A stretch of 64,000 nucleotides of DNA from Advenella mandrilli (GTDB taxonomy: Bacteria > Pseudomonadota > Gammaproteobacteria > Burkholderiales > Burkholderiaceae_B). A model generated the notes under the pieces. That model searched no databases, had not been told where the DNA came from, and saw only the letters and a program-made list of their open reading frames with translations. The stretch is taken from the NCBI RefSeq assembly GCF_016595155.1, contig NZ_JAENGP010000001.1, forward strand, positions 62,001-126,000, written 5' to 3'. The number at the start of each line of letters is the position of its first letter. Within the stretch, counting starts at the first letter, position 1. Both the position numbers and the translations under genes were made by a program. Of this stretch, positions 50,654 to 64,000 are shown in pieces.

Positions 50654-50731
50654 TGGTGCGCCCGGCAGGAATTGAACCCACGACCCCTTGGTTCGTAGCC
50701 AAGTACTCTAATCCAACTGAGCTACGGGCGC
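50654..50731 (-). tRNA. tRNA-Arg (anticodon ACG), copy 2 in the transcript
   Basis: A full cloverleaf: acceptor GCGCCCG with CGGGCGC, anticodon stem CTTGG/CCAAG around the loop CTACGAA, T-arm with GGTTCAATTCC, and encoded CCA. A34 would be changed to inosine, reading CGU, CGC and CGA. It is identical to the copy 92 bp to the right. Confidence 0.96.
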
Positions 50732-50745
50732 GTTTTTAAAGATTT

Positions 50746-50823
50746 TGGTGCGCCCGGCAGGAATTGAACCCACGACCCCTTGGTTCGTAGCCAAGTACTC
50801 TAATCCAACTGAGCTACGGGCGC
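50746..50823 (-). tRNA. tRNA-Arg (anticodon ACG), copy 1 in the transcript
   Basis: The same 78-nt sequence as the neighbouring copy, with 14 bp between them. Both are read leftwards from one promoter, so this is a recent tandem duplication or a dose-raising pair. Confidence 0.96.
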
Positions 50824-51129: not shown

Positions 51130-52344
51130 ATGCAAATCCTTCCGTTGAAACAATTAAGATTGATGCTGGCTTTCCTGTTAACCGGTTTTATTCTTAGTCA
51201 GGCATATCGAACTGTTGGCGGTGTGCTTTCAGTTCCCCTCAAAAACGAATTTCAGCTTGATAATGAAACCTTAAGCAGTATTGTTGGTTCATTTCACGTT
51301 ACTTTTGGCAGCCTGCAATTGCTGATTGGTATTTGGGTTGATTGTTTCGGTATTCGCAGAACAATTCTTTCTTTCGCCCCCTTCACTGTAATTGGTGCGG
51401 TGTTGTCGGGTATGGCCACTTCACCCGGGATGTTGCTGCTTGGGCAAATCTTGCTGGGTTTGGGGTGTGCGCCGGCATTTCTGGTTTGTATTGTGCTTAT
51501 TTCCAGAAATTTTCCGGCCCAGAAGTTTGCACCCATGTATGGCATTGCGCTTGGTTTGGGCAGTATCGGGCTAATATTTACGTCTACCCCAGTGGCCATG
51601 ATTAGTGATGCGTTTGGCTGGCGCGCCTGTTTTTATATTTTGGCGGTGGGCAGCTTCCTGTCGTGGCTGCTTATTTATTTTACGGTCAAGGATATTGACG
51701 ATAGTGTTGATTTTTCTTTAAGTTTTAAGCAAAAAATGCTTAACGCCCTGCGTGCGGTCTCTGGTTATAAAGTACTGTTTAAAATGAGACACACCTGGGG
51801 TATTTTTTCGTTGCTGTTTGTCTGTTATGCCGCTTTTCTTACTCTGCGTGGCCTGTGGCTGGGGCCTTTGCTGGTAGAGCGTTTTGGGCAAAGTCTGGTG
51901 TTTGCCGGAAACCTGGCGCTGGTGCTTTCAATTATTTCCCTGTTCAGTCCTTCACTTTTTGGGCGCTTTGATCCGGGAAGCGGCAATCGTTATAAATTCC
52001 TGTGTTCTGTTCCGTGGGTAATGGTGGTTGGCTTTATTGTGCTGGCTTTCAGCTCTTCGCTGTGGGTAAGCGTGGCCTGTACCGTAGTGATTGCCATTGT
52101 AAACAGCTGCAGTGTTTGGCAAGTGGCTGATATCCGGGATATTTACCCCAAAGAAATGCAGGGAAGGGCCCTGGCTTTGGGCAATAGCGCTTTCTTTTTA
52201 GGGGTGTCATTCATGCAGTCCATCTCAGGAAATGCCCATGCCATATTGGCTATTAATGGTATGGATGTATTCGCCTCGGTCTTTTTTATGTGTGCAATTG
52301 TTATGACAGGCGGCATTGTCGGGTATATTCTGTTGCGAAGATAA
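51130..52344 (+). CDS. MFS transporter next to the Rieske/DUF1116 operon
   Basis: A 404-residue inner-membrane protein with about twelve hydrophobic segments. It has the early GxxxDxxG-like loop as IGIWVDCFGIRRT and a long central loop with KDIDDSVDFSLSFKQKM. It is read in the same direction as the LysR and catabolic genes that follow, 40 bp before the LysR start. Uptake of the operon's substrate is a reasonable guess, not shown. Confidence 0.82.
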   Translation: MQILPLKQLRLMLAFLLTGFILSQAYRTVGGVLSVPLKNEFQLDNETLSSIVGSFHVTFGSLQLLIGIWVDCFGIRRTILSFAPFTVIGAVLSGMATSPGMLLLGQILLGLGCAPAFLVCIVLISRNFPAQKFAPMYGIALGLGSIGLIFTSTPVAMISDAFGWRACFYILAVGSFLSWLLIYFTVKDIDDSVDFSLSFKQKMLNALRAVSGYKVLFKMRHTWGIFSLLFVCYAAFLTLRGLWLGPLLVERFGQSLVFAGNLALVLSIISLFSPSLFGRFDPGSGNRYKFLCSVPWVMVVGFIVLAFSSSLWVSVACTVVIAIVNSCSVWQVADIRDIYPKEMQGRALALGNSAFFLGVSFMQSISGNAHAILAINGMDVFASVFFMCAIVMTGGIVGYILLRR

Positions 52345-52384: not shown

Positions 52385-53263
52385 ATGCAGGTGCCATTAT
52401 TAAATGCTTTACGAACCTTTACGGTATCGGCTCAACGGCTGAACTTTACCAAGGCGGCAGAAGATTTGCTGGTCTCTCCTTCGGCGGTCAGTCATCAAAT
52501 CAAGATTCTTGAAGAGTATTTGGGCTGCAAGCTGTTTTTACGTAAAAACCGTTCTTTGGAGTTGACCGATCAAGGGTTATTTTTATTTAATCGCCTGCAA
52601 CGGCCGTTTTATGAAATAAACCAGGCTTTAAGCGAATTGCGCATGCCGCATGGTAAAAGCCGTATCAATTTGTCGTTACGGCCATTTGTATCAAGCATGT
52701 GGTTCACCAGGCAATTGGGCAATTTGTGGTCCAAACACCCTGATATTGAAATTAATCTGATTCACAGTTTACAGGCTCCCGATTTTTTTCGGGATAACAT
52801 TAATTTTGCCATTGTTTGGGGCAAGCAGGGTGATTGGCCGCATTTGAATACCTTGCGGATTATCCCAGGTAATCTTACGCCTGTGTGCTCGCCATCTTAT
52901 TTGCAGAAGTACGGCAAAATTGAATCTGCGGTTGATGTAAACCAGCACATCCTGATTCATGAAGAAAACTATCTGGGTTGGCAGCAATGGCTTTTTAAAG
53001 CTACTGGGAAAGAGATGACGGCCACTAAAGGTTTTCATATTGATGATACCAATGTGAGAATGAATGCGGTGTTAAACGGTCAGGGTGTGATGCTGGGTTG
53101 TCCGGTATTGTTGCGTCCTTTAATTGAAAAAAAAGAAATAATCCAGTTGTTCGATGTGTATCTGGATGAATATGCCTATTTTCTGGCGTATCCCAAAGAA
53201 GCCAATTTAAGTCGGCAGGAACAGGATTTTATCGATTGGGTGGCCTCCATTGCGATTACGTAA
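52385..53263 (+). CDS. LysR-family (GcvA-like) regulator of the Rieske/DUF1116 operon
   Basis: A 292-residue regulator starting MQVPLLNALRTFTVSAQRLN; the ATG at 52385 is preferred because CAGGAGAC lies upstream and the winged helix begins at once. The recognition helix is in LLVSPSAVSHQIKILEEYLG. It has a terminator after it and lies 271 bp before the Rieske oxygenase gene on the same strand, so it likely controls that operon. Confidence 0.87.
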   Translation: MQVPLLNALRTFTVSAQRLNFTKAAEDLLVSPSAVSHQIKILEEYLGCKLFLRKNRSLELTDQGLFLFNRLQRPFYEINQALSELRMPHGKSRINLSLRPFVSSMWFTRQLGNLWSKHPDIEINLIHSLQAPDFFRDNINFAIVWGKQGDWPHLNTLRIIPGNLTPVCSPSYLQKYGKIESAVDVNQHILIHEENYLGWQQWLFKATGKEMTATKGFHIDDTNVRMNAVLNGQGVMLGCPVLLRPLIEKKEIIQLFDVYLDEYAYFLAYPKEANLSRQEQDFIDWVASIAIT

Positions 53264-53534: not shown

Positions 53535-54758
53535 ATGAATAGAGCTGTACGTTCGCCAATTGCTATCGAAGAATTTGACTCAAGTTATTTTGAGCAGGAA
53601 ACTGATGAAGTATATGCCTTGCCACCCGCATGCTTCACATCCGAAGCGTTTTTCCAGTTTGAACTGAATGCCGTATGGAAAAAACAATGGTTCTGTGTGG
53701 GACGAGCCAGTGATATTCCCAAGGCCGGTGACTTCTTTACCTTTGATGTGGGTGATGATGCTCTGTTTGCCATCCGTACCCGCGAGGGCAAGATCAATGT
53801 GCTGTCAAATGTATGCCGCCATCGCAATATGCTGTTGCTGGAAGGTGCGGGCAATGTACGTCGTATCAGCTGCCCATTGCACGCCTGGGTATACAACATG
53901 GAAGGCGAGCTGGTGTCTGCACCGGGTTTGACCGATTCCGGTGCCGATTTCGACCCCAAGAGCGTTTGCCTGCCAAAAATACGTGCCGAGGTATGGGAAG
54001 GCTTTATTTTCATTAACTATGATGCCTTGGCGCCCGATTTGCATACCCGTCTGGGTAATCTTGGCCAGCAGCTGGCTAACTATCGCATGGCTGACCTGAA
54101 ATCCTCAGAACCATTGAAGATGGAAAGCTTCGACTGGAACTGGAAAATTTTCAATGATGAATGCTATCACTGCAGTTTCCTGCACGCATCATCCTGGGGG
54201 GCGATGTATGAAACCAATCCGGATAGGGTTGATGAGAGCGTGGCTTTTAATGATGTGCCCAATGGTATCGTGTCTTACAACTTGATTTCCACACATATTG
54301 ATGCAGCGCCCACCAATACTGGTTCCATTTTGCAGCCAGCCATGACAGGCCTGACCGATGAAGAGCGCTCACAGCTGTCATACATCACTGTCGCGCCTAA
54401 CCTCTTGCTGGTGGCCATGCCCGATAAAGTGAAGTATTTCATGTGGCTGCCAAAGAGTGCCACTCAATCAACCTATGGCGTGTCATGGATGTATCCGCAA
54501 TCTACCCTGGAGCGTGCAGATCACAAAGAAAAATTTGACCAAGAGCACGATGACCTGTACCCGGTAATGATTGAAGATCTGTTCGCCTGGCGTCGTTCAC
54601 ATATGGGCATGAAATCCAATTTTGCATCACGTGGCCGCTTGACCAATGAAGAACTGGTCATCAAACGCTTGCAAAACTGGTTGATTGATCAGTACCGAGC
54701 CGAAGACCTGAGCGTAGAAGAAGAAAGTCGTGTATTACCTATCAAAGCGGTTGCTTAA
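53535..54758 (+). CDS. Rieske non-heme iron oxygenase, alpha subunit (GbcA/CntA-like)
   Basis: A 407-residue oxygenase that probably hydroxylates or demethylates its substrate with O2. The Rieske [2Fe-2S] ligands are Cys94, His96, Cys113 and His116 (CRHR, CPLH). The mononuclear iron site begins with ECYHCSFLH (His212, His217), preceded by the bridging acid pair. This ECYHC form resembles glycine betaine and carnitine monooxygenases more than toluene or naphthalene dioxygenases. AAAGGAGA precedes the ATG. It is the first gene of a six-gene operon and has its reductase next to it; no small beta subunit is encoded. Confidence 0.9.
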   Translation: MNRAVRSPIAIEEFDSSYFEQETDEVYALPPACFTSEAFFQFELNAVWKKQWFCVGRASDIPKAGDFFTFDVGDDALFAIRTREGKINVLSNVCRHRNMLLLEGAGNVRRISCPLHAWVYNMEGELVSAPGLTDSGADFDPKSVCLPKIRAEVWEGFIFINYDALAPDLHTRLGNLGQQLANYRMADLKSSEPLKMESFDWNWKIFNDECYHCSFLHASSWGAMYETNPDRVDESVAFNDVPNGIVSYNLISTHIDAAPTNTGSILQPAMTGLTDEERSQLSYITVAPNLLLVAMPDKVKYFMWLPKSATQSTYGVSWMYPQSTLERADHKEKFDQEHDDLYPVMIEDLFAWRRSHMGMKSNFASRGRLTNEELVIKRLQNWLIDQYRAEDLSVEEESRVLPIKAVA

Positions 54759-54772
54759 GATCAAGAGGTGGC

Positions 54773-55741
54773 ATGATGCAGCAAATATTGCAAACACGCG
54801 TATTGAAGAAAACCAGGTTGTCAGAACGGGTAGTGGGTGTAACGCTTGGCCTGGATAATGGTACCGCGTTACCAGCCTGGGAGCCAGGTGCGCATATTGA
54901 ACTTGAACTGGCCGCGTCGCAGATAGAGCCTTTGTATCGTCAGTATTCGCTTTGTGGCCAGCAGGACAATACCCATGAATGGCAAATAGCGGTTCTCAAA
55001 GACGAGGCTAGTCGTGGCGGCTCGGTTTTCATTCATGATGTGTTGCAGGAAGGTGATGTAGTGCCGGTAAGCATACCGAAAAATCACTTTCCATTTGCGG
55101 CTAATAAAAAGTGTTTTTTTATTGCCGGTGGGATTGGTATTACTCCGATAATGCCCATGGTGAAGGCCGCTGCTGCGGCCGGCCTGGACTGGCAGTTGCT
55201 GTATCTGGCTAGAAATACGGCTGATTTTATTTTTCTTGAAGATCTGCGGCAACTGGACGGTTCACGTATTAAAGCCCATGCCTCGGATTTGGATGGTCAG
55301 TTTGATTTGCAGAAAACCTTGCTGGCACTGGATGGGCAAACAACGGTGTACTCATGCGGGCCTCAAGGGTTGCTGAATGCACTTGAACAGTATCAGGATG
55401 AACAGACATATATTGGCTGGAAACTGGTGCTAGAGCGTTTTGCTATTGAGGCCGATGCAAGCACCTTAACCGGTAACAGTTTTACCGTGACGTTGCAAAA
55501 ATCGGGAAAAACCATCACGGTTGCAAGTGATGAAACCATTCTGTCTGCCCTGAAGCGAGAAGGGATCAAGGTCAAGTGTTCATGTCAGAACGGCACTTGT
55601 GGCACATGTGAAACCGTCGTGATTTCAGGCCTGCCCGAGCACAGGGATTTTGTGTTGTCTGAAGAAGAACGGGAATTGAACGAAACCATGATGATTTGCG
55701 TATCACGTGCCAAATCGGCTGAATTGGTGTTGGATTTATAA
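54773..55741 (+). CDS. PDR/VanB-type oxygenase reductase
   Basis: A 322-residue flavin reductase that feeds electrons from NAD(P)H to the Rieske oxygenase. In order: an FMN-binding barrel (LYRQYSLCGQ), an NAD domain (FIAGGIGITPIMPMVKAA) and a C-terminal plant-type [2Fe-2S] domain with ligands in CSCQNGTCGTC and a final Cys in MICVSRA. It starts 14 bp after the oxygenase gene; the ATG at 54776 is an alternative start. Confidence 0.92.
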   Translation: MMQQILQTRVLKKTRLSERVVGVTLGLDNGTALPAWEPGAHIELELAASQIEPLYRQYSLCGQQDNTHEWQIAVLKDEASRGGSVFIHDVLQEGDVVPVSIPKNHFPFAANKKCFFIAGGIGITPIMPMVKAAAAAGLDWQLLYLARNTADFIFLEDLRQLDGSRIKAHASDLDGQFDLQKTLLALDGQTTVYSCGPQGLLNALEQYQDEQTYIGWKLVLERFAIEADASTLTGNSFTVTLQKSGKTITVASDETILSALKREGIKVKCSCQNGTCGTCETVVISGLPEHRDFVLSEEERELNETMMICVSRAKSAELVLDL

Positions 55742-55762
55742 CAATAAACAGGAGCAGGAATA

Positions 55763-56635
55763 ATGAAGAAGATCGTGGTAACAGGCGGTTCGGGCCGTGT
55801 AGGCTCGTATGTGGTGCAGCAGTTGATGAAAACCATGCATGTGGTGGTGGCTGACTTGAAACCCAGCCAGCACGCAGTGGAGTTTATTGAAACCGATGTG
55901 ATGGATCTGGAAGCGGTAAGGGCGGCAACTAAAGATGCCGATGCCGTGATTCACCTGGCAGCGATTGATTTTGACTGGAAGGCGCCCGAAGAACAATACA
56001 TTAATGTGAATGTGCGTGGTACCTGGCATGTGTTGCAGGCCTGCCGTGACAATGGCGTTAAAAAAGTGGTGCTGTGTTCCAGTATTTCCGCCTGCGGCCT
56101 GTCCGAGATGCGTGCTGACTGGAAACCGCAATATTTGCCCGTTGATGAAGCACATGAAAACAAGCCTTATCAGGCTTACAGCGTGAGCAAAATCATGATG
56201 GAGCAGATGGCAAAAAGCTTTAGCGATGCCACCGATATGGAAATCATCTGTTTGCGTCCATTGGCAGTCGTGTTGCCAGAAACCATCGAAGAGTACATCA
56301 AGTTTGTGGATGCAGAAAACCGCAACTGGCTGTTTTACTACATTTGGGCAGCCGATCTGGCTCGTGCCTTTGAGGCGGCGGTGAATTTGCAGGGTTTGCG
56401 TTACGGTGTGTTTTTCATCAGTGCCGATGACACCTCACACCCATTGCCAACAAGCGAGTGGTATCAAAATATCATCGGTACCATACCTGAAATTAAAAAC
56501 CCACGCTGGTATCAGGATAATCCACGTGCTTCCATTTTCAGCAGCAGTGCGGCAAAAGAGATTTTAGGCTGGCAACCCAGCACTGATTTCAATCAATTGC
56601 GTGAAGCGTACGCGGTGGCAGAAAGCGCTGTTTAA
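55763..56635 (+). CDS. Extended SDR / NAD-dependent epimerase-dehydratase family protein
   Basis: A 290-residue extended short-chain dehydrogenase. The NAD site is TGGSGRVGSY, and the catalytic Tyr/Lys are in YSVSKIMMEQMAKSF with Ser in CSSISACG. It resembles NAD-dependent epimerase/uronate dehydrogenase-like proteins in general form. In this operon it may oxidise the alcohol made by the oxygenase. CAGGAGCAGGAA lies before the ATG, 21 bp after the reductase gene. Confidence 0.85.
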   Translation: MKKIVVTGGSGRVGSYVVQQLMKTMHVVVADLKPSQHAVEFIETDVMDLEAVRAATKDADAVIHLAAIDFDWKAPEEQYINVNVRGTWHVLQACRDNGVKKVVLCSSISACGLSEMRADWKPQYLPVDEAHENKPYQAYSVSKIMMEQMAKSFSDATDMEIICLRPLAVVLPETIEEYIKFVDAENRNWLFYYIWAADLARAFEAAVNLQGLRYGVFFISADDTSHPLPTSEWYQNIIGTIPEIKNPRWYQDNPRASIFSSSAAKEILGWQPSTDFNQLREAYAVAESAV

Positions 56636-56680
56636 CAGTTCAAGTTTAATTTATTAAAAATTCAAGGAAGGAGATTTATC

Positions 56681-57295
56681 ATGACAGGCATTAAAACAGG
56701 TACTTTAGACTGGACTGGCGATAACCCGTTTATTTATTTGAAAACCGATCCTGCTCAGGAGTGGTCTTCCTTATCTCTGTACTTCCGTATTGCGAGCTCG
56801 GCTTATGGTAGTGGCCAGGCCATTCTAGTCTTGGATAATCCCTATGAAGAGGGAAATGACGATGATACCCGTTTGTTGATCACCAATAATAAACCGCTGG
56901 CAGAATATCTTGTTCGTGATTTCGTGCGTTACTTTGGTCTGTTTCGCAAGGCGATGGCCCTGGATAAACTGAAAATCATTGATGACGGTGTGTTCCATAC
57001 CGTGAACCGTTTCCCTGACATTGTGGCGGAAACGGTGGAATCGGGTAGTGCCGGTGTGAAAGTCGAGATGCAATGGCATCAAATGGAACAGCAGGCGATC
57101 TGCGTTGATTTGCCACAAAGCCAAACCCAAACCCAGAAACACGAAATGATGTGTGTATTTCATCCGGCACAAAGTGCACGGGTATTGATTAACGGTGTTC
57201 CTTTGCAGGGCAGCACGATTGAACGTGACTTTAATGGTACGCGTGCGCAATCGGCCAGCCTGGCCAATAGTGAAACCTGGGTACGCGTAGCGTAA
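56681..57295 (+). CDS. Protein of unknown function in the Rieske/DUF1116 operon
   Basis: A 204-residue protein I do not recognise. It has no signal peptide or membrane segment. The pattern of alternating hydrophobic residues suggests mostly beta structure, with a short helical part around LVRDFVRYFGLFRKAMALDK. AAGGAAGGAG gives a very strong ribosome-binding site. It is 45 bp after the epimerase-like gene and 10 bp before the DUF1116 gene, so it may be a subunit or partner of that protein. It is not similar by eye to AllF/FdrA or AllH. Confidence 0.72.
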   Translation: MTGIKTGTLDWTGDNPFIYLKTDPAQEWSSLSLYFRIASSAYGSGQAILVLDNPYEEGNDDDTRLLITNNKPLAEYLVRDFVRYFGLFRKAMALDKLKIIDDGVFHTVNRFPDIVAETVESGSAGVKVEMQWHQMEQQAICVDLPQSQTQTQKHEMMCVFHPAQSARVLINGVPLQGSTIERDFNGTRAQSASLANSETWVRVA

Positions 57296-57305
57296 GGAGG
57301 CTTAT

Positions 57306-58481
57306 ATGGTTCAGCATGTAAACAACACCGCATTGCAAATGGTGGTACCGCTATGGACAGGGGTAAGGCAATTACAGCAGATTTTACCGCGGCAAAGTCG
57401 CCTGGTTTTACATGCCGGGCCACCTTTTCGTGACGTATCCGAGTTGCCACAGGCCATTCTTAATTCGGTTCTGGTTGGTATTCAGTATGAAAACTGGGCG
57501 CCCAATAAAGTTGCTGCGCAGACACTGCTGGAAGAGGGGGGCGTACAGCTGGCACCGGCACAGGATTATGGCGTGCTCGTACCGCTGGCCGGTGTCGTGA
57601 CTCCCTCCATGTATATGCTTGAAGTCAGCGATGGTAATCAGCCTGTAAACAAAAAATACTCGGTCCTGAATGAAGGCATGATTTGGTGTACCCGTCTGGG
57701 TATTGATGCCGAGGAAATGGTGCCACACCTGCGTTGGCTTCATCAGGATCTAGGGGCCAAGCTGGCAGCTGGTTTTGGTGGTAATGTTGACTTGGCGCCT
57801 ATTTTGCAAGTCTCTTTGCTCAATGGTGATGATGGTCATGCCCGCACCATGTATGCTTCACGTTTGCTGGCCGATATCATTGTGTCATGGGGCATTAATG
57901 ATGAGCAAAGCAAGACCTTCCTGTATGGTGCCATGGCATGGGCGTTGAACTACTGGATGGCGGCCAGTGCCCTTATTCTGGCTACACAGAAACAGCCTGA
58001 CGGCGTTGATGCCATCGTGAAAGTAGGCGGTAACGGCTTGCGTTTCGGCTTGCAGCTGGCAAGCTCGCAGAGCTGGCTGGTTGTTGATGCACCTGTTATT
58101 CAGGGCAATAAAGAGACTGGTAAAGAGCAGGTACAGGCATTAGGCACCCTGGGTGACAGTGCGGTGGTGGATTTTGTTGGGCTAGGGGGGCAATGCCTGG
58201 ATCTGGCGGGTTTAAGTGCCAAAAATCTGCAAGGCTTTTTGCCAGAAGATTACCTCACACGCCAAAGCCGTTTCCTGAAGACAAAACCACCATTTCTGGC
58301 AGGGCGTGCAGGCATTACCAATTTCAACAGTGTCATTGAAAGCAATACCGGGCCACTGGTGCTGCTGGGCATGATTGATGGCAGTGGTCGGCATGGACGC
58401 ATTGGTGGCGGGGTTGCTACGGTGGATGCCGCATTATTGCAAGCCTTGAAGGAGTGGCAAGATGAAACGACAATGGTTTAA
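57306..58481 (+). CDS. DUF1116 protein (AllG/YlbE family)
   Basis: A 391-residue member of DUF1116. E. coli YlbE (AllG) of this family is a subunit of oxamate carbamoyltransferase with AllF (FdrA) and AllH. Shared landmarks are VLHAGPPFRD near residue 35, a glycine-rich PLAGVVTPSMYMLEV, KKYSVLNEGMIW, and GDSAVVDFVGLGG. Here no fdrA-like or DUF2877 gene is nearby; the partner may be the 204-residue protein. AAGGAGG precedes the ATG. The last 20 bp overlap the amidase gene. Confidence 0.82.
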   Translation: MVQHVNNTALQMVVPLWTGVRQLQQILPRQSRLVLHAGPPFRDVSELPQAILNSVLVGIQYENWAPNKVAAQTLLEEGGVQLAPAQDYGVLVPLAGVVTPSMYMLEVSDGNQPVNKKYSVLNEGMIWCTRLGIDAEEMVPHLRWLHQDLGAKLAAGFGGNVDLAPILQVSLLNGDDGHARTMYASRLLADIIVSWGINDEQSKTFLYGAMAWALNYWMAASALILATQKQPDGVDAIVKVGGNGLRFGLQLASSQSWLVVDAPVIQGNKETGKEQVQALGTLGDSAVVDFVGLGGQCLDLAGLSAKNLQGFLPEDYLTRQSRFLKTKPPFLAGRAGITNFNSVIESNTGPLVLLGMIDGSGRHGRIGGGVATVDAALLQALKEWQDETTMV

Positions 58482-59769
58482 GCTACCCCTGCACCAATTG
58501 CTGCAGGCACTGAATGCGGGTGAAGCCAACTTGCCGGAAGTGGTGACATCTTTCTATGAGCGCACCGCTAAACGTGATGGACAAATTGGTGCGTGGCAAT
58601 ACTTGATTGATCAGGAAGACTACCTGGCTGAATATGAAAGTCGCCGTGAGTTTTACGATGCGTCACCCTTGAAAGGCTTGCCATTTGCAGTCAAAGATGT
58701 GATTGACACGGCAGATATTCCAACCACCATGGGCTCTGTTATTCACCAGGATCGCATCCCCGATATGGACGCTTCATGTGTAACTGCCATGAAGGCGGCG
58801 GGTGGTATTCTAATGGGTAAAACGGTCACGACCGAATTTGCCTATTTTCAGGCGGGTAAAACCAATAACCCGCATGACCCCGAGCGTACGCCAGGAGGCT
58901 CATCCAGTGGTTCGGCGGCAGCGGTTGCCGATTATATGGTACCGATTGCCTTCGGTACCCAAACGGCTGCTTCGGTCATCAGGCCAGCTTCGTATTGCGG
59001 TTGTGTGGGCTATGTGGGCAGCAAGAATGAATTCTCTTTGCGTAATATCCAACCCCTGGCGCAATCACTGGATTCCCTGGGCATCATTAGCAATGATGTG
59101 CTGGATACCGTACTGGTACGTAATATATTGCTGCATAAGTCTTTGGAGCCGATGCCGCAGGCAAGCCCGTTACCCTATACTTTTGGGGTTTTTACCGGTG
59201 AGGTTTTAGGGCCAGTGCAAGACAAGATGCTGGAAACCCTGGCGGGGTGTCAGCAAGAACTGGCAGAAAAGGGGCACCGGCAGGTGGATTTTCCTTTGCA
59301 GGAAACTATTGCCGAATTAACCACATTGCACGGGCAAGTCATGGCTTTTGAAGTCGCCCGTAACCTGGAATACGAGCAGCAGCATGAAACGCTTGGCAGT
59401 CATATGCAAGCGTTGATTGGTACCGGTCTGGCTTTCCCTTACAGCGATTATATTGCTGCCTTACAGAAAGCGGATGCCATGAAACAAACGCTACTCCAAT
59501 GGTTTGACAAGAGTGGGGCAGACTTTATTCTGGCACCGGCGGCACCGGGCGTGGCACCTTATAAAACCGAAGGAACGGGGACACCATTCATGAGCCGTGC
59601 CTGGCAGCTTGCCGGTTTGCCGGTGGTGTCTTTACCCTTGGGTTACTACCAGAAAATGCCGATGGGTTTGCAGCTGATAGGCAAGCCCCATCAGGATGAC
59701 TTGCTGTTGTTACAGGCAAGGCAATTGCAGCAGCTGTTTTTGAATGAGCATGCTGCGGTGGCTGTGTAG
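58462..59769 (+). CDS. Amidase-signature-family hydrolase
   Basis: A 435-residue amidase with the Ser-cisSer-Lys triad: Lys78 in AVKDVID, the GGSSSGS loop at 145-151 and the nucleophile Ser171 in GTQTAASVIRPAS. Most relatives have DTGGS at that spot; QTAAS is unusual and may widen the oxyanion hole or change the substrate. The ATG lies inside the end of the DUF1116 gene with AAGGAG upstream, so the two are translationally coupled. It ends the operon and may release ammonia from an amide product. Confidence 0.88.
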   Translation: MKRQWFKLPLHQLLQALNAGEANLPEVVTSFYERTAKRDGQIGAWQYLIDQEDYLAEYESRREFYDASPLKGLPFAVKDVIDTADIPTTMGSVIHQDRIPDMDASCVTAMKAAGGILMGKTVTTEFAYFQAGKTNNPHDPERTPGGSSSGSAAAVADYMVPIAFGTQTAASVIRPASYCGCVGYVGSKNEFSLRNIQPLAQSLDSLGIISNDVLDTVLVRNILLHKSLEPMPQASPLPYTFGVFTGEVLGPVQDKMLETLAGCQQELAEKGHRQVDFPLQETIAELTTLHGQVMAFEVARNLEYEQQHETLGSHMQALIGTGLAFPYSDYIAALQKADAMKQTLLQWFDKSGADFILAPAAPGVAPYKTEGTGTPFMSRAWQLAGLPVVSLPLGYYQKMPMGLQLIGKPHQDDLLLLQARQLQQLFLNEHAAVAV

Positions 59770-59831: not shown

Positions 59832-59879
59832 ATGGGTTCTGCAGCTACTCAACCGGGTATGAGTGCCGTAATGGTGTTC

Positions 59880-59903
59880 CTCGTTCCCATGCGCGTGGGA
59901 ATG
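59880..59903. repeat. REP-like palindromic element (copy 3)
   Basis: CGTTCCCATGCGCGTGGGAA is an imperfect palindrome that shares the GCGTGGGAATGC core with the element at 14348-14416. Confidence 0.6.
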
Positions 59904-59942
59904 CATACAGGCAACAGTATCAATGTCTGGTTTCTTCTGTGG

Positions 59943-60018
59943 AAGCGGATTTATCTTTCAGGTTTGCTCCGACGCCGCTTCGCGCCGAAGTCGCTGCACC
60001 TGAAAGATAAATCCGCTT
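59943..60018. repeat. Perfect 21-bp inverted repeat with nested hairpin
   Basis: The 21 bases at 59943-59963 (core GGATTTATCTTTCAGG) recur exactly inverted at 59998-60018, around a 34-base loop that itself contains CTTCG-CGC-CGAAG. It lies between the amidase terminator and the transposase remnants and may be part of a mobile-element end or a small non-autonomous element. Confidence 0.7.
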
Positions 60019-60203
60019 TTTGTGGTTCGGAACAGACTCTCAGTGACGAATTTTTTCTTGTAAAGGTCAAAATTAGCAATGAGCGCACTCCTGCGGGCGC
60101 AGATCCGTAAGCAATGGATGGACGGACGCCCCACCCCGTGACAGCATAAATATGCGAAAGCGAAGGTGTTATGCAATCACTTCAACTAAAAAAGGCGTCT
60201 ATC

Positions 60204-60302
60204 ATGAAGATTGCAACTATTGGTGTTGATCTGGCAAAAAAAGTATTTCAATTTCACGGTGTGAATGCGCATGGCAAGATAGTGCTAAAAAATCAGGCGT
60301 GA
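60204..60302 (+). pseudogene. IS110-family transposase, N-terminal fragment
   Basis: Thirty-two codons reading MKIATIGVDLAKKVFQFHG and onward match the start of IS110-family transposases, including the catalytic first Asp in VDLAK. The frame then stops at TGA, and no continuation is seen in the following DNA. Intact members have over 300 residues, so this is a remnant. Confidence 0.8.
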
Positions 60303-60381
60303 TCAGATGGCGAGTTTTTCGTAAATCTACCAACGTGCCTGATTGGCATGGAAGCATGATTAATCAAATGATATTGTAGCT

Positions 60382-60645
60382 TACGATGGGCTGTACTGCG
60401 CGCGAGGCGAGGTCGAGAACCGCATCAAGGAGGCGCAACTCGGTCTGTTTGGTACTCGCGCCAGTTGTCATCGGTTTGCGACCAATCAGTTCCGGCTACC
60501 ACTGGCCGCGTTTGCCTATACGTTAATGCAGCGTCTGCGTGAGGCAGTTCTCAAAAGCATTGAGCTTGGTGATGAAATATGCGGATTAGTTCTTTTCAGG
60601 CAGCCAAGGTTGGGGTCAGACAGATTTATGGCGACCAAACCCTGA
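60382..60645 (+). pseudogene. IS1380-family transposase, C-terminal fragment
   Basis: An open stretch without a proper start reads YCARGEVENRIKEAQLGLFG then NQFRLPLAAFAYTLMQRLRE, the characteristic C-terminal part of IS1380-family transposases, with the conserved Glu in GEVENR. The normal N-terminal two thirds are missing. The last about 25 codons no longer resemble the family. Confidence 0.78.
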
Positions 60646-60778
60646 AACGAGACAGTGGAGGAGGTCGCCTTCGTTATTTTTTATATGGCTGCGTACAGCA
60701 ACAGCCTTGCTTTGGTTGTAGTTTTTCTTCTCATAAAAAAGAGAAAAGCTTGTAATGCTGCAAGGCTAAGATCATTTC
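60646..60778. other. Junction region without recognised gene
   Basis: DNA between the IS1380 remnant and the promoter of the vWA gene. No ORF with a sensible start and no RNA gene is seen. It probably contains the border of a horizontally acquired segment. Confidence 0.3.
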
Positions 60779-60808
60779 TTGTGAATTGTTATTAATCGTT
60801 AATATACT
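60779..60808 (+). promoter_or_regulatory. Candidate sigma-70 promoter of the vWA/PP2C/kinase operon
   Basis: TTGTGA (60779-60784) and TATACT (60803-60808) are spaced by 18 bp. The leader to the GTG start would be about 70 nt. Confidence 0.5.
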
Positions 60809-60888
60809 GAGATAACTCCAGAGCGACAGGTTCTTTTTTTTCATAATGTTATATAGTGATACAGATAAAATCTATTCTCGGAGGGGAA

Positions 60889-61566
60889 GTGACTATTTTT
60901 GAACAACAACCGTTTGGTGATGCAGAGTTTGTGGATAATCCGCAAGCGCGATGCCCCTGCATTCTGCTTCTTGATGTTTCTGCATCTATGTCGGGCGCGC
61001 CCATCGAGCAGTTGAATGAGGGACTGCGCTATCTCCAAGAAGAAATCCAGAGCGATAGTCTTGCCGCCAAGCGCGTTGAATTTGCCATCGTGACCTTCGG
61101 TCCAGTCAGTACGGAAATGGACTTTACGAGTGCTACCGATTTCTTCCCGCCTCATCTTGTTACGCAAGGCAACACTCCCATGGGTGAGGCCGTTGAAACG
61201 GCTTTACGTATGCTGCGCGAGCGTAAGGATCGCTACCGAGCCAATGGTGTCAGCTTTTATCGCCCGTGGGTCTTTCTTATTACCGATGGCGCACCTACAG
61301 ACGATTGGAGACACGCAGCTCAGCAGATACGGGAGGGCGAAGCGTCGAAGGCTTTTATGTTCTACGCAATTGGAGTTGAAGGCGCAGACTTGGGAACTCT
61401 CGCGCAAATCTCTGTCCGCCAGCCTCTCAAACTTAAGGGGCTCCAGTTCAAAGAATTTTTCCAATGGCTTTCTAATTCGCTGGGTGCGATGTCCAGATCC
61501 AATCCGGATGATCAGGTTCCGCTTGTAAATCCCATAGCGCCAGAAGGTTGGGCAACTGCCGGATAA
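60889..61566 (+). CDS. vWA-domain protein (YegL/TerY-like)
   Basis: A 225-residue single von Willebrand A domain. The MIDAS metal site shows DVSAS (Asp29, Ser31, Ser33) and [29 protein letters not shown] is close to the start of E. coli YegL. The GTG at 60889 is chosen because GGAGGGG sits just upstream; a GTG 11 codons earlier lacks one. vWA domains of this type work in metal-dependent protein contacts beside a phosphatase and a kinase. It lies 6 bp before the PP2C gene. Confidence 0.86.
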
Positions 61567-61572
61567 GTCTTC

Positions 61573-62337
61573 ATGGAGTGGTGTTACGCAGCTGCGTCCG
61601 TGGTCGGCTTATCGCACATTCGTGCCAGAACTAGACTTCAGGATGCCAAACATTGCTTTGTTGCAAACGGTGCTAATGGTGGCCGGGTGCTTTTTGCCGT
61701 GGTTGCGGATGGTGCGGGATCGGCCAAACTCGGCGGAGAGGGCGCGTCCATCATATGCCGGACCCTTGCCAGCCAAGCCCGAAGGGCGTTGTGCAGCCCA
61801 ACGGAGCTACCTGATGATGAAACAATCTGGACATGGCTGGATATTGCCCGCGACCGCATACAACTGGCCGCAAAGAAGCGTGAACTGACCCCACGAGATT
61901 TTGCCGCAACGCTGGTTCTGGTAATTGCGTCACCGGATACTGTCGTTACTGCACACATAGGCGACGGCGCAATCGTCGCTCGTGATAGAGACGATGCCCA
62001 ATGGAGTGTCCTTAGCAAACCGCATCATGGTGAGTACGCGTCGACCACCTATTTCGTCACTGATGATCCACAGCCAACCATGCGTATTGGTAGGCATCCC
62101 AACCGGTTCAATGCCATCGCAGCTTTTTCTGATGGCATCGAGAATCTTGTCCTTGATAGCGTTACCGGTGCAGCGTACGCTGCGTTTTTTACGCCGATGG
62201 CAAAACCGCTGGAGGCTTCGACCGTCACTGGCAGAGATTGCACGTTGAGCCGAAGCCTTGCCGCCTTCCTCGGTAGTGATCGTCTCAACGAGCGGACGGA
62301 TGATGACAAAACTCTGATTGTCGCGGTGCAGAAATGA
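61573..62337 (+). CDS. PP2C-family protein phosphatase (YegK-like)
   Basis: A 254-residue Mn/Mg-dependent Ser/Thr phosphatase. Metal-binding motifs are VVADGAGSA (Asp46, Gly47), AHIGDGAIVA, AFSDGIENL and TDDDKTL. Size and motifs match E. coli YegK. It presumably removes phosphates placed by the kinase encoded next; its stop overlaps the kinase ATG by 4 bp. Confidence 0.87.
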   Translation: MEWCYAAASVVGLSHIRARTRLQDAKHCFVANGANGGRVLFAVVADGAGSAKLGGEGASIICRTLASQARRALCSPTELPDDETIWTWLDIARDRIQLAAKKRELTPRDFAATLVLVIASPDTVVTAHIGDGAIVARDRDDAQWSVLSKPHHGEYASTTYFVTDDPQPTMRIGRHPNRFNAIAAFSDGIENLVLDSVTGAAYAAFFTPMAKPLEASTVTGRDCTLSRSLAAFLGSDRLNERTDDDKTLIVAVQK

Positions 62338-64000
62338 CAATGGCCAAGTTGTTCGTAGGCAGCCAAGAGTTGCACATCGACAAGCGTATTGGCAGAGGTG
62401 GTGAAGGTGAGGTGTTCTCCATCAGTAATATGCCGGGATTTGCGGTGAAAGCCTATTTGCCAGCTATCGTGGCGGAGCGCGAAAAGAAAATTCAGGCAAT
62501 GGTCAGTGCCCGTCTTGCAGACAATACATCCACAGTGGCTTTCCCACATCAAATGGTTGTTGATGGACGTGGAACTTTCGTTGGTTTTGTGATGCGGCTT
62601 GTTGAGAAGCACAAGGAAATTCACGAGCTTCAAACCCCGTCTTCACGGCAGAAATATTTCCCCAAAGCTGATTACACCTTCATCGTGCGCGTGGCACTGA
62701 ACATCGCACGTGTATTCGCACAGATTCACGCTACGGGTTGCGTGGTTGGCGACATTAATCAGCGTGGTATTCTCGTATCCCCGACCGCTACCGTCGCCCT
62801 GATAGATGCCGACAGCTTTCAGGTCAGTGATGGTTCACAACGCTATCTGTGCGTCGTTGGCGTTCCAGAATACACGCCTCCAGAATTGCAGGGCAAATCC
62901 CTGAAGGCTATCGTCCGTACCACCGACCACGATGCTTTCGGGCTGGCTGTTTGCCTGTTCCAGTTGCTTTGCATGGACAGGCATCCATTTTCAGGCCAGT
63001 TCACAGGCCATGGGGACATGCCACTGGAAAAGGCTATTGCGGATTACCGCTTCGTCTATTCCTCTCGGAATACGGGCATGTTTCCACCTCCTGGCACAGT
63101 CAGGCTTGACGACTTCACTCCGAAAATTGCCCAACTTTTTGAAACGGCCTTTTCTCCCAACCATGTTGGGCAAAGACCGTCCGCATCGATATGGGTTGAA
63201 GCCCTTGGCGAACTGGAGTCCGCATTACGGGTTTGTAGTCAAAACAAACTTCATCATTATGCTCGGAATGCCAAGGAGTGCCCGTGGTGTCGGATGGAGA
63301 AGGCGTTCAGACGTCCCCTGTTTTTGGATCCGGGCTTCATAAATGTCGATGTCCCACCCGGTCGATTAGATCCGGCAGTAGGGTTTGTTCTGGACCTTTC
63401 TGCGTTCCTTTCAGCAATTAATGTGGTTACTATTCCGTCTTGTATATCGGTGGCAATCCCGCCGGTAGCAGGTGCACTTGCACCAAGTCAGGCAGCCAAG
63501 GAGGTACTGTCTCAAAAAAGACTGGCTCCTCTGGTCAAGATAGCCGGAGGCGCTCTTCTGTTCGGTGCAGCCTATGCGTTCGCATCTGATGTGCCCGGCA
63601 TTGTCGCTTTGGGTACTGCTGCTTTTGGGGGGTGGCTGCTATTCCGCTCATCCTCACAGGTAGACGGTTTTCTGGCTGAATATCGAAAAGCCGCTGGTGC
63701 CTTGTCTTCGCGCATAGAGTCGCTTCAGCGCTCCTCGCCCATTGTTCAGGTCCTACGGAAAAAAGCGGAGGCGCTGGATGTTATTGACGAGTATAAACAA
63801 TTGGCATCGGCATTTGGAAATGTCAGGAATGAATACGAGAAACATAGGCAGCAGAAGCAGATGGAGGGTCATCTCTCACAATTCCCAATCCGGGGCGCGC
63901 GTATTCCCAAAGTCAATTCTGGCGATATTGTGCAACTGGCGTCATATGGTTTCACCACAGCTTTTGATGCAAAACGGCGTAATGTGCAGCAGGTTTACGG
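62334..64000 (+). CDS. Atypical protein kinase (YegI-like), C-terminus beyond window
   Basis: About 555 residues are visible and the frame is open at the right edge. The kinase domain has the Gly loop IGRGGEGEVF (20-29), Lys39 in AVKAY, the catalytic Asp140 in VVGDINQRGILV and Asp158/Asp160 in IDADSF, replacing the usual HRDLKxxN and DFG. The Asn normally five residues after the catalytic Asp is Gly. A CSQNKLHHYA...CPWC zinc-binding segment follows near 300, then two hydrophobic segments (about 400-440) and a coiled coil. E. coli YegI has the same plan. The start is coupled to the PP2C gene (ATGA). Confidence 0.85.
   Translation, partial: MTMAKLFVGSQELHIDKRIGRGGEGEVFSISNMPGFAVKAYLPAIVAEREKKIQAMVSARLADNTSTVAFPHQMVVDGRGTFVGFVMRLVEKHKEIHELQTPSSRQKYFPKADYTFIVRVALNIARVFAQIHATGCVVGDINQRGILVSPTATVALIDADSFQVSDGSQRYLCVVGVPEYTPPELQGKSLKAIVRTTDHDAFGLAVCLFQLLCMDRHPFSGQFTGHGDMPLEKAIADYRFVYSSRNTGMFPPPGTVRLDDFTPKIAQLFETAFSPNHVGQRPSASIWVEALGELESALRVCSQNKLHHYARNAKECPWCRMEKAFRRPLFLDPGFINVDVPPGRLDPAVGFVLDLSAFLSAINVVTIPSCISVAIPPVAGALAPSQAAKEVLSQKRLAPLVKIAGGALLFGAAYAFASDVPGIVALGTAAFGGWLLFRSSSQVDGFLAEYRKAAGALSSRIESLQRSSPIVQVLRKKAEALDVIDEYKQLASAFGNVRNEYEKHRQQKQMEGHLSQFPIRGARIPKVNSGDIVQLASYGFTTAFDAKRRNVQQVY

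Follow-up and report, generated by a model that had tools for sequence, protein, structure and literature searches.

A six-gene operon in a 64,000-nucleotide stretch of Advenella mandrilli DNA (contig NZ_JAENGP010000001.1; the whole stretch is called the window here) encodes a Rieske oxygenase, its reductase, an extended short-chain dehydrogenase/reductase (SDR), an unnamed 204-residue protein (U204), a DUF1116 protein and an amidase. The exact order of the first five genes recurs in beta-, gamma- and alphaproteobacteria and in Mycobacterium, and the DUF1116 protein belongs to a separate branch of its family that stands alone, without the partners AllF and AllH. The initial annotation had described six closely packed genes at 53535..59769 with ribosome-binding sites, and had taken them for a catabolic operon; open reading frames (ORFs) and Pfam matches confirm that the genes are real and correctly placed, and the catabolic reading is supported. 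From these genes we infer every reaction, the order of the steps and the substrate of what is tentatively proposed to be a pathway for the catabolism of a small azaheterocyclic carboxylic acid.

Conservation of the gene order and the U204 family

An alignment-based genome scan recovered 243 relatives of U204, and the best 80 of these 243 loci were read. Because our own gene calls recovered U204 in 67 of the 80 and missed it in 13, the per-locus counts given here are lower bounds. The exact order oxygenase-reductase-SDR-U204-DUF1116, on the same strand, is present in 22 of the 80 loci (hereafter type A), namely in Advenella, Alcaligenes (3), Paenalcaligenes (2), Pontibacterium, Amphritea (5), Marinobacter (2), Paracoccus, Oceanimonas, a Rhodoferax metagenome-assembled genome, Pseudogemmobacter, a Comamonadaceae, Mycobacterium (2) and Denitrificimonas. 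This recurrence is more than chance, and since the gene set was sought in other genomes and the order was found in 22 loci, the objection that it might exist only here fails. The amidase follows directly in 17 of the 22; one locus has a glyoxalase gene and then the amidase, two reach a contig end, and in the two Mycobacterium loci the amidase lies a few kb upstream instead. On a Paracoccus aminovorans plasmid the gene order is the same, with the amidase preceded by a glyoxalase-type gene and followed by an ABC transporter.

U204 belongs to no Pfam or NCBIfam family; the best of 67 members gave chance-level matches only against Pfam, and a comparison with solved structures returned no convincing relative (best E 0.048). 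Fifteen columns are invariant across 63 U204 sequences. A single-protein search within the class retrieved U204 from 4 of 369 genomes (weakly in two cases), and four records of relatives are plasmids. Counting neighbours within eight genes at the 67 loci with a called U204, DUF1116 is found in 45, an amidase in 37 and two types of Rieske oxygenase in 24 and 20, so U204 is often, not always, part of this gene set; in the 22 type-A loci it stands immediately before DUF1116. A derivation of U204 from AllH or AllF was considered and rejected, with profile comparison giving probabilities of 2.6% and 0.2%, respectively, against AllH and AllF alignments of only two sequences each. An unnamed family is thereby placed firmly in a genomic context and given a role that can be tested.

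A stand-alone branch of DUF1116

The DUF1116 protein of the window scores 135.7 bits against PF06545 (gathering cut-off, 27 bits), while NCBIfam holds no match at all for it or for U204. It is encoded by the only DUF1116 gene of a 3.28-Mb, 100% complete genome. That neither partner is encoded in the operon, as first noted from the window, is true genome-wide: AllH (PF11392) was not found, and the single FdrA match covers query residues 108-301 of 516 in a frame whose 298 residues correspond in size to a succinyl-CoA ligase alpha subunit. Carbamate kinase was likewise not found above the cut-off in this genome, the only match scoring 23 bits. The partners are missing from other carriers too. 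Among the 20 relatives' genomes searched, 19 behind type-A loci and one behind a locus without the reductase (L041), DUF1116 was found in 20, AllH in none, and FdrA in 18 as partial matches of at most 219 of 514 residues. The DUF1116 protein is therefore confirmed as standing alone, without AllF or AllH.

Across 75 aligned DUF1116 proteins (72 distinct), an Ala-Gln pair occurs in 55 distinct proteins, including that of the window, at the place of Cys-His (16) or Asn-His (1) in the other 17; the Cys-His pair of AllG-type proteins is thus replaced in the window protein. The two sets are split by a branch with 100/100 support in a tree for which the program warns of several long branches, and the N-terminus of Ala-Gln members is usually shorter, though the two sets overlap. 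A phylum census placed DUF1116 in 16 of 398 genomes. In the 15 besides our own, AllH is present in seven, that is, in 7 of 11 AllG-type genomes and 0 of 4 others (three of Ala-Gln type and one weak broken match). Because 4 of 11 AllG-type genomes also lack AllH, its absence alone is weakened as a mark of the new clade. No DUF1116 relative was found in viral contigs.

DUF1116 hence comprises two deeply separated branches, one of which does without AllF and AllH, the partners recently assigned to the family, and for this reason genes of the Ala-Gln branch that are annotated "oxamate carbamoyltransferase subunit AllG" are probably misnamed. In E. coli, the oxamate carbamoyltransferase reaction requires allF, allG and allH, all three (PMC11326118). 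The carbamoyl-transfer step of the initial annotation is not supported, in view of this requirement, the missing Cys-His pair and the profile comparison that separates U204 from AllH and AllF. With AllH, full-length FdrA/AllF and carbamate kinase absent and the protein placed in the Ala-Gln clade, formation of carbamoyl phosphate by this DUF1116 protein appears unlikely.

Several further DUF1116 contexts were observed. A Rhodococcus ruber plasmid (L010) carries two same-clade DUF1116 genes near two Rieske-reductase pairs, a formate dehydrogenase and a malate synthase, with no U204 called. At L012, an annotated HpxZ gene, an amidase and an Ala-Gln DUF1116 are adjacent and a molybdenum hydroxylase is also present; at L121, an amidase, a small HpxZ-like gene and an Ala-Gln DUF1116 are adjacent, and the two loci together form a second recurrent context. 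Same-clade DUF1116 genes in L011 and L015 lie beside molybdenum hydroxylases with an amidohydrolase; these and the L012 neighbourhood count in favour of the pathway proposed below. Klebsiella and Aminobacter plasmids (L013, L014), which are mobile, bear complete FdrA-DUF1116-DUF2877-carbamate kinase sets together with a ring-opening amidohydrolase. An Amphritea atlantica contig (L123, L124, L023) holds a catabolic island with two DUF1116-amidase groups about 32 kb apart. The second DUF1116 there is accompanied by an amidohydrolase, an amidase and a gene of the gamma-glutamyltransferase family, to which the oxamate amidohydrolase HpxW belongs, and one of the groups adjoins such a gene and a VanA-type Rieske gene.

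Proposed pathway and competing explanations

The oxygenase shows the CxH...CxxH cluster motif and the 2-His-1-carboxylate iron site of Rieske non-haem iron oxygenases; C94/H96/C113/H116 are the cluster ligands and H212/H217/D348 likely the iron ligands, with E209 at the bridging position, and none of these residues varies among the 16 type-A oxygenases that were aligned. Its first description as GbcA/CntA-like holds loosely. The score against the GbcA model NF058607 is 132 bits against a cut-off of 670, and among structures in the Protein Data Bank biphenyl dioxygenase (106 bits) ranks just ahead of carnitine monooxygenase (100 bits). No NCBIfam model scored above its cut-off for the oxygenase, the reductase or the amidase. 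The nearest solved relative of the amidase is malonamidase E2 of Bradyrhizobium, to which the profile of the amidase family scores 390 bits (next different enzyme, 225). K78, S147, S171 and R174 align with the Lys, cis-Ser, Ser and Arg residues K62, S131, S155 and R158 of that enzyme and are invariant in 15 of 15 sequences; R158 of malonamidase E2 binds the substrate carboxylate. The terminal amide hydrolysis that had been suggested fits such an amidase.

Neighbouring genes at type-A loci add to this picture. A glyoxalase I relative occurs in 17 of the 22 (173 bits to lactoylglutathione lyase 6bnn); the metal ligands of GloA, His/Glu/His/Glu, are visible in the full-length GloA-like sequences, several of the other aligned sequences beginning too late to show the first His. 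The two Mycobacterium loci have a PfpI-type protein (DJ-1/PfpI). In two Marinobacter loci and in Denitrificimonas, the last operon gene encodes a relative of the oxaloacetate decarboxylase PA4872 (202 bits; next, 97). Carriers of the carboxylate type are present (TRAP in 11 of 22, MHS-type MFS in 7), and in Amphritea atlantica genes for a choline-dehydrogenase-like GMC protein, an aldehyde dehydrogenase and an NCS1 (cytosine/purine-type) permease lie directly upstream of the operon. The 20 loci with the second Rieske type (sister operons) contain U204 in 20, DUF1116 in 17 and a called amidase in 10, as well as a sulfopyruvate-decarboxylase-like thiamine pyrophosphate (TPP) enzyme pair in 11, a HisC-like aminotransferase in 10, an aldehyde dehydrogenase in eight and a sarcosine-oxidase-like gene in seven. 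In gene order, this set could turn X-CH2-CH(NH2)-COOH into X-CH2-COOH ahead of the oxygenase.

In the proposed pathway, the oxygenase, supplied by its reductase with electrons from NAD(P)H, would hydroxylate the ring, probably at a C=C bond, and the SDR would oxidise the new hydroxyl to a lactam-type carbonyl. The ring would then open, spontaneously or through U204, to an N-acylated amide R-CO-NH-C(=X)-, and the stand-alone DUF1116 protein would hydrolyse this bond to give R-CONH2, where R bears a carboxylate. From this the malonamidase-type amidase would release ammonia and a C3-C4 dicarboxylic acid, which may be oxaloacetate in the lineages where the operon ends in the oxaloacetate-decarboxylase relative, and glyoxalase I (DJ-1/PfpI in Mycobacterium) would clear a 2-oxoaldehyde arising from collapse of the ring diol.

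Animals turn histidine and histamine into imidazole-4-acetate and the methylimidazoleacetates as end products, and imidazole-4-acetate or its N-methyl forms are our best single guess at the substrate. Imidazole-4-acetate would fit best because its C5-C4-CH2-COOH chain matches the oxaloacetate skeleton, because diol collapse would yield 3,4-dioxobutanoate, a 2-oxoaldehyde that would explain the glyoxalase, and because enzymes of the sister operons could produce an X-CH2-COOH acid of this kind from an amino acid. The fully specified scheme, an aerobic route from imidazole-4-acetate or methylimidazoleacetate to oxaloacetate through a Rieske oxygenase, a ring-opening U204 and a hydrolytic DUF1116 without AllF or AllH, with the related Rieske type using this module for amino acids by way of transamination and decarboxylation, is rather improbable as a whole. 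A direct match to the histamine (hin) genes was rejected, the operon's oxygenase being different and of Rieske type; the operon has no HinF-type FAD monooxygenase, and the genome was not searched for HinF. Because marine relatives have sarcosine-oxidase genes, homarine and trigonelline were also considered as possible substrates.

A number of observations weigh against the azaheterocycle pathway. The oxaloacetate-decarboxylase relative is found in only 3 of 22 loci, and its best NCBIfam label is methylisocitrate lyase (140 bits; cut-off, 354); alcohol-oxidation genes accompany only one of the 22. To our knowledge, no activity has been established for any stand-alone DUF1116 protein or for U204. 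E209, in the motif ECYHC, is presumably typical of CntA and GbcA and recalls N-demethylating Rieske enzymes. The names of the sister-operon enzymes are approximate, since all fall under their NCBIfam cut-offs: the aminotransferase at 251 and 241 bits (277), the TPP pair at 95 and 103 bits (148 and 312) and the aldehyde dehydrogenase as well. Because the transaminase-type genes occur with a different Rieske type, the two operon types need not share a substrate, and the transaminase set might instead act on a product. Moreover, 10 of the 20 second-type loci have no called amidase, and amidase-U204 clusters without DUF1116 exist (L063, L078). Lastly, the imidazoleacetate pathway already known relies on an FAD monooxygenase and yields aspartate (PMC8231116, PMC6467879).

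Similar logic could apply to another ring. In a cyclic-ureide (pyrimidine or hydantoin) route, the oxidised ring would give an acylurea R-CO-NH-CO-NH2, which DUF1116 would split into an amide and carbamate before the amidase finishes. The NCS1 nucleobase-type permease adjoining the Amphritea operon is consistent with this, as is the second Amphritea atlantica DUF1116 with its amidohydrolase, amidase and gamma-glutamyltransferase-family gene. The E. coli homologue, too, acts with AllF and AllH on an acylurea, oxalurate (PMC11326118). The route is nevertheless unlikely, as no cyclic amidohydrolase is encoded in the window operon or among the recurrent type-A neighbours and the sister operons, with their aminotransferase-decarboxylase set, suggest an acid of the form X-CH2-COOH. 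For barbiturate or ureidomalonate, no matching paper was found in the open-licence literature.

Alternatively, the oxygenase could act on a betaine-like compound and remove its N-methyl or N-carboxymethyl group (compare GbcA, CntA and Stc2), leaving the other enzymes to handle the released amide or glyoxylate. The invariant Glu209, the BetAB-like genes ahead of one operon and the Rhodococcus ruber DUF1116 genes with their Rieske, formate dehydrogenase and malate synthase neighbours all point this way, but scores against the GbcA and GbcB models (132 and 77 bits) are far below the cut-offs of 670 and 500, the window operon has no formaldehyde-handling gene, and the conserved SDR would have no role in a simple demethylation, which makes N-dealkylation quite unlikely.

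The initial annotation's scheme, in which DUF1116 with U204 as a new partner would phosphorolyse an acylurea to carbamoyl phosphate, draws on AllG homology (PF06545, 136 bits) and on the fixed position of U204 before DUF1116 in type-A loci, but is very improbable given the lack of carbamate kinase in the own genome and of AllH in 20 of 20 others, Ala-Gln for Cys-His in 55 of 55 distinct clade members, profiles that leave U204 unrelated to AllH and AllF, U204 loci without DUF1116 (which lies within eight genes in 45 of 67) and clade DUF1116 genes at annotated loci without a called U204 (L010, L011, L012, L015).

Genomic setting and relation to known systems

The six ORFs lie on the plus strand at the positions first assigned to them, with gaps of 14, 21, 45, 10 and -20 bases and visible purine-rich ribosome-binding sites ahead of the starts.

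Table 1. Features of the operon and its surroundings in the window.
Feature	Positions	Strand	Details
MFS transporter, upstream	51130..52344	+	MFS_1 2.1e-33
LysR-type regulator (GcvA group)	52385..53263	+	GcvA model 223 bits, cut-off 288
Rieske oxygenase	53535..54758	+	407 aa; Pfam Rieske + Ring_hydroxyl_A
Oxygenase reductase, FNR-type, C-terminal [2Fe-2S] ferredoxin	54773..55741	+	322 aa; Pfam Fer2 + NAD_binding_1
Extended SDR	55763..56635	+	290 aa; Pfam Epimerase; TGGSGRVG and YSVSK motifs visible
U204, unnamed family; candidate ring-opening enzyme or accessory protein	56681..57295	+	204 aa
DUF1116 (AllG-like), stand-alone Ala-Gln clade	57306..58481	+	391 aa; PF06545 2.1e-39
Amidase-signature hydrolase near malonamidase E2	58462..59769	+	435 aa; Pfam Amidase 1.2e-63
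Start of 9.6-kb insertion	59844..64000, past the window end to G000:C11:131462		Synteny with L016 ends at 59843

Both upstream genes named at the outset, MFS and LysR, are present. For the LysR gene the ORF list gives a TTG start at 52316, and the ATG at 52385 is likelier. It is a probable regulator of the operon; a LysR gene of the same cluster is present in 17 of 22 type-A loci, and among solved structures GcvA was matched and none named HinK. The MFS gene may belong to the same system; it is not conserved with the operon, its cluster having two members, in the window and in Advenella faeciporci (L016). Just upstream of it, two near-identical tandem tRNA-Arg (ACG) genes lie on the minus strand (50654-50731 and 50746-50823).

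In Advenella faeciporci and Alcaligenes, a 144-residue gene and then MFS, LysR and glyoxalase genes come after the operon. Synteny with A. faeciporci ends at window position 59843 and restarts at C11:131463, 9,619 bases on, where L016 has 137 bases. The 9.6-kb insertion separates the operon from the c42-MFS-LysR-glyoxalase genes at G000:C11:131466-135330 of the same contig, where MFS is 95% and glyoxalase 87% identical. The insertion contains VWA, PP2C and protein-kinase genes that resemble a TerY-type triad, and short pieces like transposase remnants were seen by eye, one of which (32 residues) gave no match when scanned.

The classes of enzyme involved are known ones; what appears undescribed is how they are combined, along with the DUF1116 branch and U204. 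In agreement with the view that the operon is new, no printed description of it, nor of DUF1116 together with a Rieske oxygenase, was found in the open-licence literature. The findings point to a widespread, apparently unprinted N-heterocycle pathway that spans beta-, gamma- and alphaproteobacteria and Mycobacterium, with faecal and marine isolates among the carriers.

Compared with known systems, the proposed azaheterocycle pathway possibly shares its substrate with the imidazoleacetate branch HinFLHG of Pseudomonas, and in both oxygenation is followed by amide-bond hydrolases. HinFLHG differs in its FAD monooxygenase, its RidA-like and other amidases and its aspartate product, and its listed gene functions include no Rieske or DUF1116 protein (PMC8231116, PMC6467879). 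With GbcAB and CntAB, the operon shares a two-component Rieske oxygenase with an FNR-ferredoxin reductase and, presumably in the same role, Glu at the bridging position, whereas its proteins score far under the GbcA and GbcB cut-offs and SDR, U204, DUF1116 and amidase genes come next. The amidase resembles malonamidase E2 in its Ser-cisSer-Lys residues and R158 counterpart, but sits in an oxygenase operon. With AllFGH of E. coli, the operon has in common the DUF1116 core and a probable action on an N-acylated amide bearing a carboxylate; here, in contrast, DUF1116 forms a separate clade with Ala-Gln for Cys-His, and U204 and an oxygenase take the place of AllF, AllH and carbamate kinase.

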